The notes under the pieces were generated by a model. The model was given only the letters and a program-made list of their open reading frames with translations, was not told the origin of the DNA and made no database searches. The position numbers and the translations under genes were made by a program. From Pseudomonadota bacterium (GTDB lineage: Bacteria; Pseudomonadota; Gammaproteobacteria; Pseudomonadales; Moraxellaceae): 64,000 nucleotides of DNA. The DNA is taken from positions 62,001 through 126,000 of the forward strand of contig JAJZBU010000002.1 in the NCBI GenBank assembly GCA_021851865.1, read 5' to 3'. Shown here piece by piece: positions 12,967-57,130 of this stretch. Every line of letters begins with the position of its first letter. Position 1 is the stretch's first letter.

Positions 12967-13040
12967 GGCGTCTCTCTCCTCGATAGGGGAATAGGGACGC
13001 GGTACGTAGAGACAAAGAAGCTCGCCGACCGCATCGGTAC

Positions 13041-13114
13041 AGCGAGCGTCGTTGACGATCACATAGGATCGGCCTGAGCCTGGCGGGTCGAACCCGTCGC
13101 AACGCTCCTCAGGG
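13041..13114 (-). promoter_or_regulatory. SAH riboswitch upstream of ahcY
   Basis: Read on the minus strand, the leader contains the conserved SAH-aptamer core: P1 arm CCTGAG (13108-13113) pairing with CTCAGG (13073-13078), the invariant GAGGAGCGTTGCGAC segment, a short P2 hairpin cgggt/acccg, then CGCCAGGCTC. A downstream CAACGACGCTC (about 13044-13054) can pair with GAGCG/GTTG of the core as the pseudoknot. This matches the known RNA class found before ahcY in many proteobacteria, where SAH binding turns expression on. It sits 33 nt after the metK stop and about 75 nt before ahcY. Confidence 0.93.
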
Positions 13115-13147
13115 ATGCCTCATCTTAGCTGCGAACGTCGGTACTGG

Positions 13148-53763: not shown

Positions 53764-55977
53764 TCAGGAAAGATCTTGCGGATCGACGTCGATCCAGCAG
53801 CGCAGGTGCGCGGGACGAGCTTCGTTCAGCCGCTGTTGCAAGGAGGCAAGAGCCGTGTGCAGGGCCTGTCGCGAGGGGCTTTGCAGCAACAGATGCGCGC
53901 GAAAGTCACCGGCTTTGCGTTCGATCGGGGCGGGCATGGCGCCAAAGGGTGCGATCTCTGCGGGTAAGCGCTGCGCCAGTTCGGCGAGATAGCTCTGCGC
54001 CTGCTCGCCGTCGCGGCCTTGCGCGATGAGCAGGGCCTGGTGGCCGAAGGGGGGCAGACCCATGGCGGCGCGTTCATCGAGCAAGGCGGCGGCGAAGGAC
54101 TCGTAACCGGCGTCGACCAGCGTCTGCAGCAGGGGGTGATCGCTGCAGTGGGTCTGCAGCAGCACCTCGCCGGGATGATCGCCGCGGCCGGCGCGGCCGG
54201 CGACCTGGATGACGAGCTGGGCACAGCGTTCGAGGGCACGAAAGTCGCTGGCGAAGAGGGCCGCGTCGATGTCGACGATGACGACGAGGGTGACGGCGGC
54301 GAAGTGATGCCCTTTGGCCAGCATCTGGGTGCCGAGCAGGATGCCGGGTTCGTGGCGGTGGATGCTCTGCAGGGTGTGTTCGAGCTCACGCGGCGAGCGG
54401 ATGCTGTCGCGATCGATGCGCCAGAGGGGGTGATGGGGAAAACGTTGCGCCAGCATCTCCTGCAATTTTTCGGTGCCGATGCCGAGCGGGCGCAGATCCT
54501 GACTGCCACAGGCGGCGCAACGCTGCGGCAGGGGCTGGCTGATGCCGCAATGATGGCAGATGACGCGACCGAGGCGGCGGTGCCAGACCGGCGTCGTCGA
54601 GCAACGCGGGCAAGGCAGGCGCCAGCCGCAGTCATGGCAGAGGAGAACGGGGGCATAACCACGGCGGTTGAGGAAAACGAGCACCTGATGCGCGGCGTCG
54701 AGGTGCTCTTGCAGGCGCAGCAGGACGCTCTCCGCCATGCCTTCGCACAGCGGCTGGTGGCGCAGATCGAGCAGACGCAGCGCCGGTGGCGGATGGCGAT
54801 TGGAGCGATGTTGCAGGCGCAGCAGACGATAACGGCCGCGTTGGGCATTGTGCAGGGATTCCAGCGCCGGCGTCGCCGAGCCTAGGACGATGGGGATCTT
54901 CTCGATGCGAGCGCGGACCACGGCGAGATCGCGGGCGTGATAACGAAAGCCGTCGCCCTGTTTGAACGAAGGGTCATGTTCTTCGTCGACGATGATGATG
55001 CCGAGGCGCGGCAGGGGTGTGAAAAGTGCCGAGCGCGTGCCGACGACGATGCCGACGTGACCCGCCCGCGCCTGCTGCCAGGCGTGCAGGCGTTCGCGGT
55101 CGGACAGGCCGGAGTGCAGTCCGAGGACGGGGCAGAGAAAGCGTTGTCGAAAGCGCTGCAGGGTCTGCGGCGTCAGGCTGATCTCGGGGATCAGCACCAG
55201 CGCTTGCTGACCGCGCTCGAGCAGGCGTTCGATGATCTGCAGATAGACCTCGGTCTTGCCCGAGCCGGTGACGCCAGCGAGCAGGCTCACCTGAAAACCG
55301 GTGTCGGCGAGCACACTGTCGCGCGCGTGCGCCTGTTCGGCGTTCGCCGGCAGGGCGCTTTCCGCCAAGCCGCAGAGCACGGGCGGGGGCGGGGCGCTGG
55401 CCCTCTGTTCGGCGTAGCCGCGCTTTTCCAGAGCGCGCAGATCGCGCGTCGTGATGCCGAGGACTTGTGCCATCTGCGCGCTCAGGCCGGCGCTCTCTTC
55501 GCGCAGGGACTGCCAGGCGAGTCGCTGGCGCGGCGCTGTCCGTAAAAGATCGGGTTGGCCGAGGCGCCCGAGAGCCGTTTCATACCAGCGCAACTCGGGA
55601 GCTATTTGTGCGCTCTCGCCCTGACGTAACAGGACAGGCAGCGCCTGAAACAGGACTTCGCCGGCGGGATGCCGGTAATAGTCGGCAGCAAACTGCGCTA
55701 GTTCGAGGAGGGCTGGCGTCAACACCGCTTCCTCATCGAGGATGGCGTCGATCGCGCGCAGATCGCGCGGGTGTCCGTCGCTGCTGGCGTGCAGAGCGGT
55801 GACCAGGGCGGTGACCAGGCGTCGGCCAAAATTCACGCGCACGCGCATGCCGATGCGGAGGCGAGCGTGTTCCTGAGGCGTGACGCGATAGTCGAAAGCC
55901 TGCCACAGCGGCAGCGCGACGACGACTTGAATGCAGGGGGTGGGCAACGCGACGGCCTCCTGACGCGATATCGACAT
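53764..55977 (-). CDS. priA: Primosomal replication restart helicase PriA
   Basis: A 737-residue superfamily 2 helicase that recognises forked DNA and reloads DnaB. The 3'-end-binding N-terminal domain starts CIQVVVALPLWQAFDYRVTP. Walker A is LAGVTGSGKTEVYLQIIERL, Walker B IIVDEEHDPSFKQGDG, and the inserted zinc domain shows CHDCGWRLPCPRC with CHHCGISQPLPQRCAACG. The start at 55977 depends on GGAGAGG (55986-55992), which belongs to the end of an adjacent IS200/IS605-type remnant. Confidence 0.96.
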   Translation of the reverse strand: MSISRQEAVALPTPCIQVVVALPLWQAFDYRVTPQEHARLRIGMRVRVNFGRRLVTALVTALHASSDGHPRDLRAIDAILDEEAVLTPALLELAQFAADYYRHPAGEVLFQALPVLLRQGESAQIAPELRWYETALGRLGQPDLLRTAPRQRLAWQSLREESAGLSAQMAQVLGITTRDLRALEKRGYAEQRASAPPPPVLCGLAESALPANAEQAHARDSVLADTGFQVSLLAGVTGSGKTEVYLQIIERLLERGQQALVLIPEISLTPQTLQRFRQRFLCPVLGLHSGLSDRERLHAWQQARAGHVGIVVGTRSALFTPLPRLGIIIVDEEHDPSFKQGDGFRYHARDLAVVRARIEKIPIVLGSATPALESLHNAQRGRYRLLRLQHRSNRHPPPALRLLDLRHQPLCEGMAESVLLRLQEHLDAAHQVLVFLNRRGYAPVLLCHDCGWRLPCPRCSTTPVWHRRLGRVICHHCGISQPLPQRCAACGSQDLRPLGIGTEKLQEMLAQRFPHHPLWRIDRDSIRSPRELEHTLQSIHRHEPGILLGTQMLAKGHHFAAVTLVVIVDIDAALFASDFRALERCAQLVIQVAGRAGRGDHPGEVLLQTHCSDHPLLQTLVDAGYESFAAALLDERAAMGLPPFGHQALLIAQGRDGEQAQSYLAELAQRLPAEIAPFGAMPAPIERKAGDFRAHLLLQSPSRQALHTALASLQQRLNEARPAHLRCWIDVDPQDLS

Positions 55978-55978
55978 G

Positions 55979-56012
55979 TTGACATCCTCTCCGCCTTAAA
56001 GGATAGAGATTC
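55979..56012 (-). mobile_element. Right end of a degraded IS200/IS605-family element
   Basis: On the minus strand the stop of the tnpB remnant is followed by a terminus of the form CTCTATCCTTTAAGGCGGAG then AGGATGTCAA, closely resembling the subterminal palindrome and GGATGTCAA end of IS605/IS1341-type insertion sequences. The palindrome is eroded (only CCTTTAAGG remains perfect). The end abuts the priA start codon. No left end, tnpA or intact tnpB is present. Confidence 0.72.
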
Positions 56013-56142
56013 CTGCAGCTAGACGCTCATGTCCGAGCGCGAGAATGTTGCTTGCGGCGTTGATGTCGCGGTCGTGGAGTATACCGCGCTGGGGTACGAG
56101 TGGACCGTGGCGGGTCAAGTTAAGAATCGCGGTTGCTACCAT
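55996..56142 (-). pseudogene. tnpB: tnpB (IS605 OrfB) C-terminal remnant
   Basis: The 48 codons before the stop end in PQRGILHDRDINAASNILAL and GHERLAAGISIL, the C-terminal signature of TnpB, the RNA-guided nuclease of IS200/IS605 elements. The zinc-finger cysteines expected just before HDRD (CPxCG) read VPQRG, so the finger is destroyed and most of the gene is missing. The stretch 56143-56310 upstream holds only a 64-codon minus frame without recognisable similarity; I see no other gene there. It can still carry a fragment of the element's guide-RNA region. Confidence 0.78.
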
Positions 56143-56310
56143 CGAAAGATAATTCGACCTTCAGCCACCGGCGACCTGCCCTTCAACCCTACCGCCGATG
56201 CATCCACTGCGCAGCAGAGTGACACCGTTTTCATGCTCGGGGGCGTCGGCCTGCTTCCATGACGGTTAAGGTCTTGGCTACCAACGTAGTGATCCTTCTT
56301 CGCCGCTGTT

Positions 56311-56338
56311 ATTATAGACAGCTTAAACAAACGGTCAA
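56311..56338 (-). promoter_or_regulatory. Strong sigma-70 promoter pointing to priA
   Basis: On the minus strand TTGACC (56333-56338), 16 nt, then a perfect TATAAT (56311-56316). Initiation near 56304 would give a 327-nt leader through the tnpB remnant to priA. No other gene on this strand lies between. Confidence 0.65.
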
Positions 56339-56444
56339 CGGCATGCTTATATCCCTGGCCAACCCCTAAAAAAAATGGGGTCGATGGAAACGGCAGGGCT
56401 TTACGCGCAAACGTGATAACAGACTTGCGGCGTCATGCTTCCGG

Positions 56445-56473
56445 CTGACGATCGCGAGCCGGATTGCTATGAT
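56445..56473 (+). promoter_or_regulatory. Candidate sigma-70 promoter for the methyltransferase-kinase pair
   Basis: CTGACG (56445-56450), a 17-nt spacer and TATGAT (56468-56473), with predicted initiation near 56480 and the start codon at 56507. Consensus match only. Confidence 0.5.
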
Positions 56474-56506
56474 GAAGCCTTCAGGGTGTGATGTGGTGAG
56501 GATGCT

Positions 56507-57130
56507 ATGGGACAAGCCGAAATCGAGCGCTGGGAACAGCGCTACAAGACCGAGACCTATGTCTTTGGCAAGACCGCGAATGCTTTTCTGCAGCGCGCTG
56601 CAAGCCATCTGCCGGCGGCCAGTCGGGTGCTCGCCGTCGCCGATGGCGAAGGGCGCAATGGCGTCTGGCTGGCGGCACAAGGGCATCAGGTCTGTGCTGT
56701 CGAGGCTTCGCCTTCGGCCCAGAACAAAGCCCGTCGCCTCGCCGAGGAGCAAGGGGTGCAGCTGGAGCTGATCGAGGCCGATCTGCTCACCTGGGAATGG
56801 CCACGCGAGGCCTTCGATGCCGTGGTGGCTATTTTCATCCAGTTCGCGACGCCGCCGCAGCGCGCTTATCTATTCGCCGCCATGCAGGCGGCTTTGCGGC
56901 CGGGGGGATATCTGTTGTTGCAGGGGTATGGCCTGGAGCAGCTGCAGCATCGCACGGGAGGCCCGTCACAGCCTGAGCAGCTGTACACCCGGGAGCTTCT
57001 GCGCGCCGCTTTCGCCGATTTTGAACTGATCGAATTGCGTGAGTACGAAGCCGAGATCGATGAAGGGCCAGGTCATGCTGGCCGATCGGCGCTGATCGAT
57101 CTGGTCGCGCGCCGACCTCTGTCGCGGTGA
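56507..57130 (+). CDS. Class I SAM-dependent methyltransferase (TehB-like)
   Basis: A 207-residue methyltransferase. It starts with ERWEQRYKTETYVFGKTANA, a pattern of the TehB/thiopurine-methyltransferase-like group, and shows the SAM motif VLAVADGEGRNGVWLAAQGH, acidic loop VEASPSAQNKARR and motif IV AFDAVVAIFIQFATPP. The substrate is unknown. Its stop overlaps the kinase start by 4 nt (GTGA), implying translational coupling. Confidence 0.85.
   Translation: MGQAEIERWEQRYKTETYVFGKTANAFLQRAASHLPAASRVLAVADGEGRNGVWLAAQGHQVCAVEASPSAQNKARRLAEEQGVQLELIEADLLTWEWPREAFDAVVAIFIQFATPPQRAYLFAAMQAALRPGGYLLLQGYGLEQLQHRTGGPSQPEQLYTRELLRAAFADFELIELREYEAEIDEGPGHAGRSALIDLVARRPLSR

Follow-up and report, generated by a model that had tools for sequence, protein, structure and literature searches.

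The priA Locus and Its Counterparts in Related Genomes

The window, that is, the whole 64-kb stretch of DNA under analysis, belongs to contig C47 of a genome of 2.44 Mb (G000) and carries on its minus strand priA, which codes for the primosomal helicase. A methyltransferase gene (ATG at 56507) is transcribed divergently from priA, and its promoter-like site, CTGACG-17-TATGAT, lies outside the insertion described below and is mostly conserved in the two congeneric genomes that served as element-free comparison. These are G002, the closest relative, whose PriA is 90% identical, and G001, a more distant congener with a PriA of 75% identity. The DNA that separates the two divergent genes in G000 is missing from both of them, and their priA intergenic region is short, with CTGTTATCATG... 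leading directly into priA. Elsewhere in the window, an SAH riboswitch (RF01057) is found at 13037-13116 on the minus strand, scoring 57.5 bits, above the gathering score. The features of the priA upstream region are collected in Table 1.

Table 1. Features in and upstream of priA (window positions; a slash marks the insertion point).
Feature	Position	Strand	Basis or remark
priA (primosomal helicase), corrected start	53764..55947	-	PF17764, PF18074, PF18319; PDB 8fak, 4nl4 homologue
Probable native priA start codon, TTG	55945..55947	-	Sole in-frame start in the G002 N-terminal region; homologue starts
Native priA Shine-Dalgarno, AGGAGG	55956..55961	-	GGAGG kept in G002; anti-SD duplex energy
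ATG taken earlier as priA start	55975..55977	-	Host target-site DNA (TTAT/CATG); at most an additional start
Element A, IS605/IS1341-type (tnpB-only) remnant, 437 bp	55979..56415	-	Empty site in G002 and G001; ends like those of related copies
Right-end terminus of element A, GGAGAGGATGTCAA	55979..55992	-	Recurrent copies in G000 and relatives
tnpB 3' remnant, ending ...LHDRDINAASNILALGHERLAAGISIL then TAA	55996..56090	-	83-88% identity to 3' ends of tnpB copies
Element B end fragment, 182 bp, nested in element A	56089..56270	.	Copies elsewhere
Left end of element A, starting CACGTTTGCGCGTAAAG	56266..56415	-	80-85% identity to left-end copies in G000, G004, G005
Sigma-70-like promoter TTGACC-16-TATAAT, toward priA	56311..56338	-	11/12 consensus match
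Disrupted native extended -10-like box, TGTTAT/CAC	56413..56421	-	Alignment; TGTTATCAT in G001 and G002
Promoter-like site CTGACG-17-TATGAT of the divergent methyltransferase gene	56445..56473	+	Alignment

A Decayed IS605-Type Element Upstream of priA

Searching against G000 and related genomes split the segment into three blocks. Element A is flanked by host TTAT (56419-56416) on one side and by host CATG (55978-55975) on the other, and these flanks, once joined, reproduce the empty sites of both congeners with no target duplication. In the alignment, the empty sites read CTGTTATCATGACATGATCGCGTCCGGAGG in G002 and CTGTTATCATGG in G001, and the filled site of G000 reads CTGTTAT/CACG...GTCAA/CATGTCGATATCGCGTCAGGAGG. 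The left end (LE) of element A includes the tnpB promoter and the region of the tnpB ribosome binding site (RBS) and TTG start. Nearly all LE copies of this family have TTAT at their left flank, one decayed copy having TGCT. The tnpB 3' remnant gives a weak match to PF07282 (E=0.032), and a relative of element A in G004 retains an intact open TnpB frame of 353 residues (PF07282, E=6.6e-24). Inside the element copies that were read, tnpA is absent.

At the right end (RE), a single C separates the terminus from the ATG at 55977, which leaves the sequence GGAGAGG 8 nt from this codon. The 14-mer terminus occurs only once more in G000, at C31:43149. Related RE copies, found in G000, G002, G004, G005, G006 and G020, stop at the same GTCAA, beyond which the DNA is unrelated; they finish in ..GATGTCAA, for which local folding predicts a stem TCTCT..GGAGA, and a purine-rich GGRGAGG lies just inside the RE termini of the IS605-type family. 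The pattern GGRGAGGATGTCAA is present in 11 of the 58 genomes searched, the reversed control pattern giving one match.

IS200/IS605 insertion has been described for elements that target TTGAT and TTAC (PMC8612924), and the insertion of element A is, as read from its junctions, of this mode. With IS1341-type members of the family it shares TnpB coding sequence (TnpB/OrfB, through the C-terminal remnant and the full-length relative in G004), insertion without duplication on the 3' side of a short specific target, TTAT, and a conserved RE terminus with a subterminal hairpin. Unlike intact IS1341-type elements, it keeps its ends alone, and its tnpB has given way to a fragment of a different repeat. 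This fragment, belonging to element B, stands in place of most of tnpB and has no Pfam match. Copies 92-93% identical to it lie at C12, C35 and C7, and others are found at C39, C25, C2 and C18 and in G002. At C31:43149, tnpB sequence is not visible just before the terminus copy, and about 800 bp beyond it there is a short, 43-bp end of element B (98%).

The first-pass annotation of this DNA had proposed that the conserved terminus of an IS605-type element adjoins the priA ATG, and that an insertion followed by decay took place there. The terminus at 55992-55979 of the minus strand, its recurrence at C31:43149 and the GTCAA end common to the relatives bear out the former, and the latter is supported by the empty sites of both congeners, by the TTAT target and by the agreement of the ends with those of related copies. 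The stretch 55979-56142, which had been read as one element, is instead composite: positions 56090-55979 are indeed an IS605-type right end, but 56270-56089 belong to the other repeat.

A search of the right end for known non-coding RNAs yielded no Rfam family above the cut-off. A full-length, sub-threshold match to the HgcC RNA (56089-55966, minus strand; 18.7 bits versus 50, E=0.057) spans the tnpB 3' end and the RE, the position expected of a TnpB reRNA. The arrangement resembles the reRNA (omegaRNA) of ISDra2 (PMC8612924) in combining the tnpB 3' end with the RE, the host flank in the guide position being the priA 5' region. It differs from ISDra2 in that tnpB is destroyed, the matching site in G000 is interrupted, Rfam gives nothing above threshold and the case is known from sequence alone.

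Translation Start of priA

In G000, AGGAGG (55961-55956) stands 8 nt ahead of an in-frame TTG (55947), which sits 30 bases inside the gene relative to the ATG at 55977, and GGAGG-TTG is kept in G002. The exact TTG is not found in G001, which probably uses a nearby ATG. The frame of ATG-55977 reads MT* in G002, where a TGA two codons on means that this ATG cannot start priA. Homologues of the PriA family start with ATG or GTG at, or at most two codons from, residue 11 of the open reading frame, the TTG position, and matches to PDB and Pfam begin at residues 14-17.

Pairing with the 16S rRNA was evaluated with the standard anti-Shine-Dalgarno (anti-SD) sequence, which had to be assumed, as the 16S pattern GGATCACCTCCTTW is absent from the G000 assembly. 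The duplex energy is -10.3 kcal/mol for the TTG versus -6.8 kcal/mol for the ATG, and random 20-mers of the window do as well in 0.3% of cases for the TTG region versus 3.7% for the ATG region. For ATG-55977 the best pairing is offered not by GGAGAGG but by AAGGCGGA, whose end lies 12 nt upstream of this codon. Fold predictions show GGAGAGG as largely paired (mean unpaired probability 0.16-0.27); the native AGGAGG has values of 0.32-0.65, the lowest (0.32, mostly paired) in the fold of the full-length leader.

It had been argued that GGAGAGG is the only visible RBS, and that the IS end provides the Shine-Dalgarno (SD) of priA, with translation from ATG-55977 and an extension of 10 residues. 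The geometry, GGAGAGG 8 nt from an ATG in an open frame, speaks for this idea, as does the start codon itself, ATG being usually a stronger start than TTG; the sequence upstream of ATG-55977 is passable, which counts against a native TTG start, and the RE termini bear their GGRGAGG just within the end. An IS-supplied RBS would, however, be expected to be the only or the best one for priA, and the native AGGAGG-TTG is both better and conserved. With homologue starts near TTG-55947, the blocking TGA in G002, an ATG derived from the host and a GGAGAGG that is mostly paired, this explanation is improbable, and neither of the two claims could be upheld. A less extreme version, in which both starts are used and the IS raises total PriA or adds an isoform, finds support in the absence of a stop between the two in-frame starts of G000; the extension shows no sign of being conserved or selected, and the closest relative cannot make it, so this version is rather unlikely too, although some PriA with an extended N-terminus may arise from ATG-55977. 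Because of G002 and the family homologues, we infer strongly that priA translation most likely starts at the native TTG-55947. A working RBS for priA does not have to come from the IS end, and probably does not come from it, and the element is more likely to have altered the promoter of the gene than its RBS.

A Split Native Box and the Promoter of the Element

The box TGTTATCAT is conserved in G001 and G002 although the rest of the spacer has diverged. It is of the extended -10-like type (TGTTATCATG) and in these relatives overlaps, at its 3' end, the ATG taken earlier for the priA start; in G000 the insertion has split it. The putative native promoter is a motif match alone, without a good -35. 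The sigma-70-like TTGACC-16-TATAAT within element A is the sole site in the 64 kb, both strands included, that matches the consensus at 11 or more of 12 positions. It is the predicted tnpB promoter of the element itself; related LE copies carry TTGACY-17-TATAAT ahead of tnpB, and it has been lost from two other decayed left ends of G000 (C34 and C45). The site lies inside the element and is co-directional with priA, and no terminator-like site was seen between the two.

These sequence features slightly favour a takeover in which all or part of priA transcription is now read-through from the dead tnpB unit. As a hypothesis of re-wiring, the takeover is to be preferred to SD supply, because the box is split, a unique 11/12 promoter points toward priA, no terminator intervenes and co-transcription from IS elements is known. 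The stronger proposal, that the native -10 box of priA was split by an IS605-type insertion and that the gene is now driven by a tnpB promoter of the dead element selectively kept while other copies lost theirs, stands at about even odds. An alternative is that the element is transcriptionally inert, priA being expressed from another promoter, such as a gene-proximal one or the remaining native box, which still reads TGTTATCAC; matches to the sigma-70 consensus can indeed be non-functional. The remaining box, however, has lost the last T of its -10 and is now more than 450 nt from the priA TTG, and no other minus-strand promoter-like site is listed within 55900-56600, which makes the inert element a doubtful alternative to promoter takeover. 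The earlier suggestion that priA was re-wired by the IS is unsupported for translation, but remains plausible for transcription.

Proposed Course of Events

The explanation proposed as a whole, to which a probability of about 0.75 is assigned, is that the insertion split the box and left the native RBS and TTG intact, and that the tnpB promoter probably drives priA. As the empty sites show, a tnpB element of the IS605/IS1341 type entered the priA coding strand directly 3' of TTAT (TGTTAT/CATG), without duplication; its target was the extended -10-like box, presumably that of the original priA promoter. In a decay step, the end fragment of a second element then took over most of tnpB. The native AGGAGG-8-TTG (55947) stayed intact downstream of the insertion, so that translation most likely still begins at this TTG. 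The insertion also damaged the -10-like box and set the tnpB promoter, facing the same way as priA, about 360 nt upstream of its TTG; priA is probably transcribed, wholly or in part, as read-through of the tnpB unit. GGAGAGG is part of the conserved right-end sequence, which serves the reRNA or transposition, and would have only the appearance of an RBS.

Other Copies Adjoining Start Codons

The same kind of right end adjoins CATGCCGCC of an MFS-like gene on contig C43 of the same genome. The empty site in G002 (C85) reads GTTTAT/CATGCCGCCCTTGCAGGAGTGATGGATG and likewise has an in-frame TGA, showing that the native start of the MFS-like gene lies downstream, behind AGGAG; judged on these sequences, this gene presents the same misleading RBS-like arrangement as priA. 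The situation differs on contig C34 (125400-125800), where a decayed copy of the element A family has its right end 2 nt ahead of the start codon, ATG, of a ParA-like gene. In G001 the orthologue, which can be aligned from residue 2 onward, has an ATG at the same position. Here a native SD-like stretch, weak at -4.4 kcal/mol when the flanks are joined, has been parted from the ATG by the element, and the SD position of parA is now occupied by AGGGGGGGTG from the right end (-11.6 kcal/mol). The right end may thus really supply the SD at this locus, which the idea of an IS-borne RBS appears to fit better than it fits priA. In G005 (C129, minus strand), a right end GGGGAGGATGTCAA is directly followed by the ATG of an ORF of 461 codons.

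A general preference for co-directional insertion between -10 and RBS was also considered. Of 49 right-end flanks, 18 have their nearest ORF (within 200 nt) in the same direction and 17 in the opposite one, and this lack of orientation bias argues against systematic targeting behaviour.

Relation to Known Systems and Significance

For ISTosp1, another member of the IS200/IS605 family, co-transcription of the IS genes with downstream genes has been reviewed (PMC9330008). Element A resembles it in that the promoter of its own gene aims into the downstream host gene. Unlike in ISTosp1, the transposon gene is defunct and its downstream neighbour is a housekeeping gene, for replication restart, and the case is read from DNA sequence only. 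Events of this kind are known, and the present one, in which an IS605-type element entered a promoter region and then decayed, adds a further case of ordinary IS biology.

Its value is that a likely misannotation of the priA start codon, brought about by an RBS-like IS end, is corrected, with the MFS-like gene as a parallel. Gene callers may pick false starts wherever IS605-type right ends adjoin an ATG, as these ends carry GGRGAGG just within their terminus. The locus also illustrates cleanly how an IS605-type element, on insertion, split the putative promoter of a replication-restart gene, the promoter of the element being the candidate replacement.
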